A DNA stretch of 64,000 bases from an uncultured Pelagibacteraceae bacterium (GTDB lineage: Bacteria > Pseudomonadota > Alphaproteobacteria > Pelagibacterales > Pelagibacteraceae). Of this stretch, positions 55,456-57,230 are shown in pieces (the stretch's first letter is position 1; each line of letters starts with the position of its first letter). The notes under the pieces were generated by a model. It had not been told where the DNA came from, did not search any database, and was given only the letters and a program-made list of their open reading frames with translations. The translations under genes were made by a program, and so were the position numbers. The stretch is taken from NCBI GenBank assembly GCA_902625715.1, contig CACOCP010000005.1, forward strand, positions 1-64,000, given 5' to 3'.

Positions 55456-55731
55456 TTAAACAAAAATTCCCTCTTTTTTTAAGAGTTTTTTCTTGGTTTT
55501 AATGCCTCCAGGACCTGAATATCCACCTAGGGACCCGTCAGATCTGATAACTCTATGACAAGGTATTTTAGGTGCATTTGGGTTTTTTCCAACCGCATTT
55601 GCTACAGCTCTAGCAGCTTTTGGCTTATTTATAGCTTTTGCGACCTCTAAATAGGACCTAACTTGGCCTTTAGGAATGGTTTTAAGATAATTCCATACTT
55701 TTAACTGAAATTTGGTACCTTTTAGGATCAT
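55456..55731 (-). CDS. Ogt/MGMT-type alkyltransferase, catalytic domain only
   Basis: The 91 residues match the C-terminal DNA-binding domain of methylated-DNA-protein-cysteine methyltransferases: FQLKVWNYLKTIPKGQVRSYLEVA, the Arg-finger region ARAVANAVGKNP, and the active-site PCHRVI with C58, then GSLGGYSGPGGIKTKKKLL. The N-terminal domain of Ogt/Ada is absent. Unlike alkyltransferase-like (ATL) proteins it keeps the cysteine, so repair activity is possible. A longer frame from a TTG at 55773 would enter the GC-rich block and is less likely. Confidence 0.87.
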   Translation of the reverse strand: MILKGTKFQLKVWNYLKTIPKGQVRSYLEVAKAINKPKAARAVANAVGKNPNAPKIPCHRVIRSDGSLGGYSGPGGIKTKKKLLKKEGIFV

Positions 55732-55780
55732 TTTAGAGAAAAACCCTGTTACCTTGTACCTTTTCAGGCACAAAGAACAG

Positions 55781-55920
55781 TAGTTTTTGGCACGTCGTTG
55801 TATGCGCTACCGCCATGCCTTCCACTTCGCTATTTTAGCGCTACTCAGCGAAGTTTTCTGCCCTCTAGGCTTGAATCTCTCGATTTTTCCCTAGATGGTC
55901 AGTTAAGAGTTGCCTCTTAA
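55781..55920. ncRNA. Candidate structured RNA or recombination locus (GC-rich block)
   Basis: By hand count 55781-55900 is about 48% G+C, while the following 120 bases are about 24%. It contains several hairpins: GGCACG/CATGCC across 55789-55820, ACTTCGCT/AGCGAAGT (enclosing TAGCGCTA), a CTAGG/CCTAG stem with an inner GAATC/GATTT pair (55861-55898), and a perfect TTAAGAG/CTCTTAA stem with loop TTGC (55903-55920). No protein frame is convincing. It is not a tRNA and shows no motif of SRP RNA, RNase P RNA or tmRNA that I can recognise. The strand is undecided. Confidence 0.5.
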
Positions 55921-56012
55921 TTCATTATTAAAATAACATATTAGCAATTTTAAGGGTATCACTTTATCGTTGAATTTAACGGTTTTTTAACACTTGTGAA
56001 TAGCGTTAATAA

Positions 56013-56276: not shown

Positions 56277-57230
56277 ATGAATGAACTAACTACAGACCTA
56301 AAATTGCTTCATGAAGCAACTTTAAATAACTTAAAAAACTCAAAAGCTAATAATACTTTAAGAGCTTACAAATCTGATTTTAAAGATTTTGGAGTTTTTT
56401 GTGCAAAAAATGGATTAAATTCATTACCAACTGAACCAAAAATAGTTTCCCTATATCTTACACACCTTTCAAAAAATTCAAAAATAAGCACTTTAAGAAG
56501 GAGATTAGTGTCAATAAGTATGGTTCATAAAATGAAAGGGCATTATCTTGATACCAAACATCCAATTATAGTTGAAAATTTAATGGGAATAAGAAGAGTT
56601 AAAGGAAGTATTCAGAGAGGAAAAAAACCTATACTAATCAATCATTTAAAATTACTTATTGATACAATAAATGAACAAAAAACTGAGGAAATAAAAAAAT
56701 TTAGAGACAAATCATTAATATTAATCGGCTTTGGAGGTGGTTTTAGACGAACAGAACTAATTTCAATTGATCATGAGGATTTAGAATTTGTATCTGAGGG
56801 TCTTAAAATTACTGTTAAAAAATCAAAAACTGATCAATTTGGTGAGGGAATGATAAAAGGACTGCCCTTCTTTGCCACTGAAAATTACTGTCCTGTTAAA
56901 AACTTGAATAAATGGCTCGAAATAGCAAAGATCAAGTCTGGACCAATTTTTAGAAGATTTTCAAAAGGTTTATCACTAACAGATAAAAGACTTTCAGACC
57001 AATCAGTAGTCTTATTGATTAAAGAATATTTACGTTTAGCCGGTATCGAAAATAAAAACTTTGCTGGTCATAGTTTGAGATCAGGTTTTGCAACAGTTGC
57101 AGCTGAGTCAGGAGCGGATGAAAGAAGTATTATGGCTATGACAGGTCATAAAACTACCCAAATGGTAAGGAGGTACATCAGAGAAGCAAATATTTTTAAA
57201 AATAATGCTCTAAGTAAAGTTAAGTTTTAA
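56277..57230 (+). CDS. Tyrosine recombinase / phage-type integrase
   Basis: It cuts and rejoins DNA at specific sites. The 317 residues have an N-terminal SAM-like DNA-binding domain (about 15-100, TLRAYKSDFKDFGVFCAKNG) and a catalytic domain with the full set: R157 in GGFRRTEL, K near 182-184, H265-x-x-R268 in GHSLRSGFA, H291 in GHKTTQMV and the nucleophile Y300 in RRYIREA. It is not XerC or XerD-like enough to call either. No other phage or transposon gene is near. No Shine-Dalgarno is seen because the inverted repeat fills the leader. Its end overlaps the GT9 gene by 21 bases tail to tail. Confidence 0.92.
   Translation: MNELTTDLKLLHEATLNNLKNSKANNTLRAYKSDFKDFGVFCAKNGLNSLPTEPKIVSLYLTHLSKNSKISTLRRRLVSISMVHKMKGHYLDTKHPIIVENLMGIRRVKGSIQRGKKPILINHLKLLIDTINEQKTEEIKKFRDKSLILIGFGGGFRRTELISIDHEDLEFVSEGLKITVKKSKTDQFGEGMIKGLPFFATENYCPVKNLNKWLEIAKIKSGPIFRRFSKGLSLTDKRLSDQSVVLLIKEYLRLAGIENKNFAGHSLRSGFATVAAESGADERSIMAMTGHKTTQMVRRYIREANIFKNNALSKVKF

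Follow-up and report, generated by a model that had tools for sequence, protein, structure and literature searches.

An IMES-2 RNA gene on the minus strand of a SAR11 genome, with its probable ends and a loop-loop helix supported by covariation

IMES RNAs were reportedly described from marine metagenomes by Weinberg and colleagues in 2009 and are said to be abundant in metatranscriptomes. The IMES-2 family (RF02035) is a catalogued structured RNA from ocean sequences; our literature search found no paper on IMES-2 RNA in bacteria, the original IMES description being outside its scope. Among other described systems, 6S RNA (RF00013) shares with IMES-2 a comparable length and a stand-alone gene, and a similar role would be speculative; IMES-2 differs from it in giving no match to the 6S model and in having no long hairpin with a central bubble. 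Hfq-dependent sRNAs are also stand-alone and have a terminator-like 3' end, whereas Hfq was not detected in the SAR11 genomes tested and IMES-2 offers no long unpaired seed. Riboswitch-like leaders, for example the purine riboswitch, have kissing loops, and their adjacent hairpins with paired loops resemble hairpins P3 and P4 of IMES-2. Unlike such leaders, IMES-2 is not tied to one downstream gene, which argues against a cis-regulator. To the catalogued family, the present analysis adds its placement and neighbours in SAR11 genomes, a promoter-like block and a 3' hairpin marking the likely ends of the RNA, and a fold refined by a kissing helix.

The locus lies within a window of 64 kb, the whole stretch of DNA that was analysed, where a sequence-only reading had pointed to a GC-rich block at 55781-55920. 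The recount agreed exactly with its figure of 58 G or C among the 120 bases at 55781-55900, the window mean being 34.2 per 120, while the 120 nt just after the block hold 32 and not the 29 that had been counted. A content of at least 58 of 120 was reached at four sites in the window, the block and three tRNA genes only (Table 1). In 'Ca. Pelagibacter ubique', structured RNAs were found in most long GC-enriched intergenic regions (PMC2704228), and the peak in the window agrees with this pattern.

In a search of the window with Rfam release 15, a check that the sequence-only reading had itself suggested, the block matched IMES-2 on the minus strand at about three times the curated gathering cut-off of 54.7 bits. 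The match was full length, with model positions 1-141 aligned end to end to 55927..55787, no broken consensus pairs marked and all consensus hairpins present. No rival Rfam family was above cut-off in the block, and a permissive intergenic scan returned IMES-2 as the only match of note. The nested structure is the same as that of the family, and the genome carries one copy, as befits a single-copy orphan RNA; on each feature that could be tested, the block belongs to IMES-2. 6S, SRP, RNase P and tmRNA were rejected, as in the earlier reading, since none of them matched the block at E values up to 10. Protein coding was also rejected: no frame in the block is conserved, which bears out the impression that none looked real, and the covarying structure is on the minus strand. 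The GC-rich block is therefore an IMES-2 RNA gene of a SAR11 genome. The proposal of a noncoding RNA gene was right, as shown by the RF02035 match and by covariation, and what had escaped the earlier reader was the catalogued family and the strand. The limits proposed for the block needed a small correction: the Rfam motif covers 55787-55927, and the probable unit about 55928 to about 55737.

Table 1. Features at and around the IMES-2 gene (positions are those of the window)
Feature	Position	Strand	Evidence
IMES-2 RNA motif (RF02035)	55787..55927	-	165.1 bits, E 1.4e-43, window scan
P1 hairpin UUAAGAG GCAA CUCUUAA, GNRA tetraloop	55903..55920	-	100% of cells paired, 4/7 pairs with double changes
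P2/P2b hairpin	55858..55902	-	pairing in 93.5% and 91.3% of cells, double changes at 9 pairs
P3 hairpin, large loop	55824..55854	-	8/8 pairs with double changes, 95.8% paired
P4 hairpin, large loop	55789..55819	-	5/9 pairs with double changes
Kissing helix, 5' side, GCGCU in P3 loop	55837..55841	-	pairs with 55804-55808
Kissing helix, 3' side, AGCGC in P4 loop	55804..55808	-	pairs with 55837-55841
P5 3' hairpin, terminator-like	55741..55787	-	-22.9 kcal/mol, z -7.5
U-rich tract UUUUUCUCU after P5, probable RNA 3' end	55735..55743	-	sequence
-10-like TATGTT	55935..55940	-	TaTGaT-like consensus and 16-nt spacer in alignment of upstream regions
Upstream block CAACGATAAAGTGATAC with -35-like GTGATA at 55957-55962	55956..55972	-	conserved upstream sequence
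Ogt/MGMT-like neighbour, 91 aa, PCHRV kept	55456..55731	-	PF01035, E 1.4e-33
Lone tyrosine recombinase neighbour	56277..57230	+	PF00589, E 5e-20
tRNA Arg, other site at 58/120 G+C	233		
tRNA Ser, other site at 58/120 G+C	44691		
tRNA Pro, other site at 58/120 G+C	61880		

The minus strand folds (55930..55725) at -70.9 kcal/mol with z = -6.4 against dinucleotide shuffles, and the plus-strand fold of the block is weaker (z = -2.9). At least four stems had been predicted, and four were found on the minus strand together with a fifth hairpin at the 3' end. A covariation analysis of homologues, likewise proposed in the earlier reading, revealed compensatory changes among 121 distinct sequences. In this alignment, 94.1% of the cells of a 44-pair structure are paired and 29 pairs have changed on both sides, with a covariation score of 0.360 compared to 0.166 in shuffled and at most 0.093 in slid copies; RNAalifold alone predicted 36 pairs, 24 of them with double changes. 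An internal loop, GGAAA/CAAG, and a GNRA loop, GAGA, are conserved in P2/P2b, and the few conserved unpaired bases lie in this internal loop and in short linkers. The conserved IMES-2 structure is under compensatory selection.

Comparative evidence further supports pairing between the P3 and P4 loops. Across the same 121 sequences, 96.9% of the cells in this kissing helix are paired, three of its five pairs show double changes, and 17 double-change cells were counted against 1.6 in shuffles. Pairing is kept in the loop combinations GCGC/GCGC, GCAC/GUGC (in genus g2 and, separately, in g6), GUAC/GUAC (in g6 and in copies of the g5 type) and UCGCU/AGCGA (in g1 and copies like it), and the three variable pairs required 5, 3 and 4 changes on a tree from which the loop columns had been left out. 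In a subgroup of 16 rows, UCGCU faces AGCGCAU and a bulge is needed to go past four pairs. Taken alone, the number of further pair types did not exceed that in shuffles, so that the evidence for the contact is strong by its score and its double changes and not by every measure. The helix is absent from the structure line of the Rfam entry, a format that cannot carry pseudoknots, and both the contact and the assignment to SAR11 may already be known to specialists.

Of 156 distinct sequences from upstream of the motif, 155 had an AAGTGAT-type element 34-37 nt before it, usually with CAAC before and a TATGAT-like -10 after. The upstream block has one perfect match in its own genome, at the IMES-2 gene, and near matches there were little above control, giving no sign of a shared promoter regulon. 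Downstream, each of 157 distinct loci has a hairpin directly after the motif, with a median of -21 kcal/mol compared to -6 for simple base shuffles; its sequence differs completely between genera and the hairpin itself is kept. A run of at least four T follows it in 73% of the loci. The g5 copies (L034, L036-L041) have the hairpin and no clear T-run, and here the hairpin may belong to the RNA itself, beyond any role as a terminator. The probable transcription unit thus begins near 55928 and ends near 55737, approximately 190 nt, with the predicted promoter-like block reaching 55972.

Both neighbours named in the earlier reading were recovered with Pfam, with one correction for the Ogt-like gene: the ORF called from TTG 55773 overlaps the 3' hairpin of the RNA, and the conserved start is ATG 55731, past that hairpin. 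The 91-aa product consists of the MGMT DNA-binding/active-site domain alone, with no N-terminal domain. In genus g1, the gene order is tyrosine recombinase, a small or 158-aa ORF, IMES-2, ogt-like and EamA. The small membrane ORF between the recombinase and IMES-2 is swapped for a membrane-protein-like ORF of 158-164 aa in many relatives (L020, L002, L003 and similar loci), indicating that the adjacent upstream gene is exchangeable.

In the window and at all g1 loci examined, ogt lies a few bases past the U-tract of P5 on the same strand, an arrangement that would suit a cis-acting leader or attenuator of ogt with P5 as expression platform. This is a quite unlikely explanation, because ogt adjoins IMES-2 only in g1, and relatives keep ogt without the RNA upstream. 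In g5 and g6, the RNA follows mnmA and usually precedes a convergent gene, and in g2 it stands between a nuclease and a convergent YedK-like gene (the names mnmA, nuclease and YedK rest on sequence motifs, not on Pfam). These different neighbours across genera speak against IMES-2 acting in cis on ogt and equally against an element bound to the recombinase, and by this comparison the IMES-2 gene is independent of its neighbouring genes.

Most members of the genus keep the recombinase at this locus, whether or not they carry IMES-2, and it adjoins variable genes (glycosyltransferase-like or others); the locus may be a variable region. An attachment region or a piece of foreign DNA had been considered in the earlier reading, and an attachment site or mobile-element fragment tied to the recombinase could be imagined from the lone tyrosine recombinase 350 nt away, from presence and absence within a genus with an empty site, and from the three genomic positions of the RNA. 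Such an origin is, however, highly improbable. The recombinase is also found in relatives lacking the RNA, and the RNA elsewhere without the recombinase; att-like direct repeats were not found at the flanks, where only short AT-rich chance repeats occur; and the structure is under compensatory selection. Nor does the locus look foreign, since the RNA occupies different loci in several SAR11 genera, no match was obtained in phages, and none in viral contigs in a scan limited to exact patterns. Taking the three neighbourhoods together with the conserved promoter-like block and the stable 3' hairpin, IMES-2 is most likely a stand-alone RNA of about 190 nt, not an ogt leader, an attachment site or a transposon.

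Of 297 genomes sampled from the SAR11 order, 139 carried IMES-2, always as one copy, and these carriers represent four genera within one family. It was absent from the 382 other genomes sampled from the class Alphaproteobacteria, two of which are SAR11 genomes of the same genus. In a scan of named genomes, the titles among the matches listed were all Pelagibacteraceae, Pelagibacter or Pelagibacterales. When a model of our own, R1, built from 121 homologues, was run on the genomes without IMES-2, only weak matches of at most 21 bits were obtained; these were judged spurious, as those inspected were in coding-like sequence and several fell at two recurring spots. IMES-1 as a substitute gave no match in these genomes, nor in the controls.

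In relatives without IMES-2, the locus reads recombinase, small ORF and ogt, or another gene lies upstream of ogt, with no room for the RNA, and this empty site separates carriers from non-carriers. On an Ogt tree, which is poorly resolved, presence and absence required about five changes, and these were clustered, indicating a few gains or losses and not random patchiness. About half of the sampled genomes of the order, some of them complete, live without IMES-2, so the lineage as a whole does not require the RNA.

With regard to global RNA regulators, 6S RNA (RF00013) was found in none of 22 SAR11 genomes by a search that was positive in Caulobacter, E. coli and others. By Pfam, Hfq was found in none of 23 SAR11 genomes, the positive controls matching, and ProQ in none of 19; E. 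coli was the sole control to match for ProQ, which makes this last negative a weak one. The usual regulators thus seem missing from the tested SAR11 lineage, while 6S RNA and Hfq were found in Caulobacter.

The stand-alone transcript form and the terminator-like hairpin with its U-tract would fit a regulatory sRNA pairing with mRNAs through unpaired stretches. This reading is doubtful, as neither Hfq nor ProQ was detected in the tested SAR11 genomes, and the most conserved loop bases are in the kissing helix or in GNRA loops. Somewhat less probable still is that IMES-2 stands in for 6S RNA, binding the housekeeping RNA polymerase and damping transcription in starved cells. In its favour are the missing 6S matches, the presence of the gene as one copy whose promoter-like region is unusually conserved, and the reported abundance of IMES RNAs in ocean metatranscriptomes. 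The shape of IMES-2, four separate hairpins and a loop-loop contact in place of one long hairpin that opens into a large bubble at its centre, speaks against it, as does the half of the genomes that have neither IMES-2 nor 6S. A diverged 6S may have escaped the search.

Compared to these two readings, a protein-binding, trans-acting RNA is the most likely function, with about an even chance of being correct. It is suggested by the GNRA loops on P1 and P2, the tying of the P3 and P4 loops to each other and the lack of a long conserved single-stranded seed, together with the undetected Hfq and ProQ. The missing Hfq is also compatible with mRNA pairing, and the g5 copies without a clear T-run count against the explanation as a whole, which includes a stand-alone gene with its own ends. 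Under it, the RNA would be made from its own predicted sigma-70-like promoter and ended at the stable 3' hairpin, and would then act in trans as a compact RNA, not through mRNA pairing, by binding a protein or protein complex as a sequestering or scaffold RNA. More tentatively, and with a low probability, IMES-2 could be a lineage-specific RNA-protein regulator in SAR11, locked by its kissing loops, that controls some core machinery, RNA polymerase or the ribosome for example.

The placement of the gene, its neighbours, likely ends, promoter and fold, and the empty site in relatives make the function of IMES-2 testable in cultured SAR11. If the tentative regulator proposal were true, an RNA locked by kissing loops would control a core machine in a subset of the bacteria that are most abundant in the ocean.
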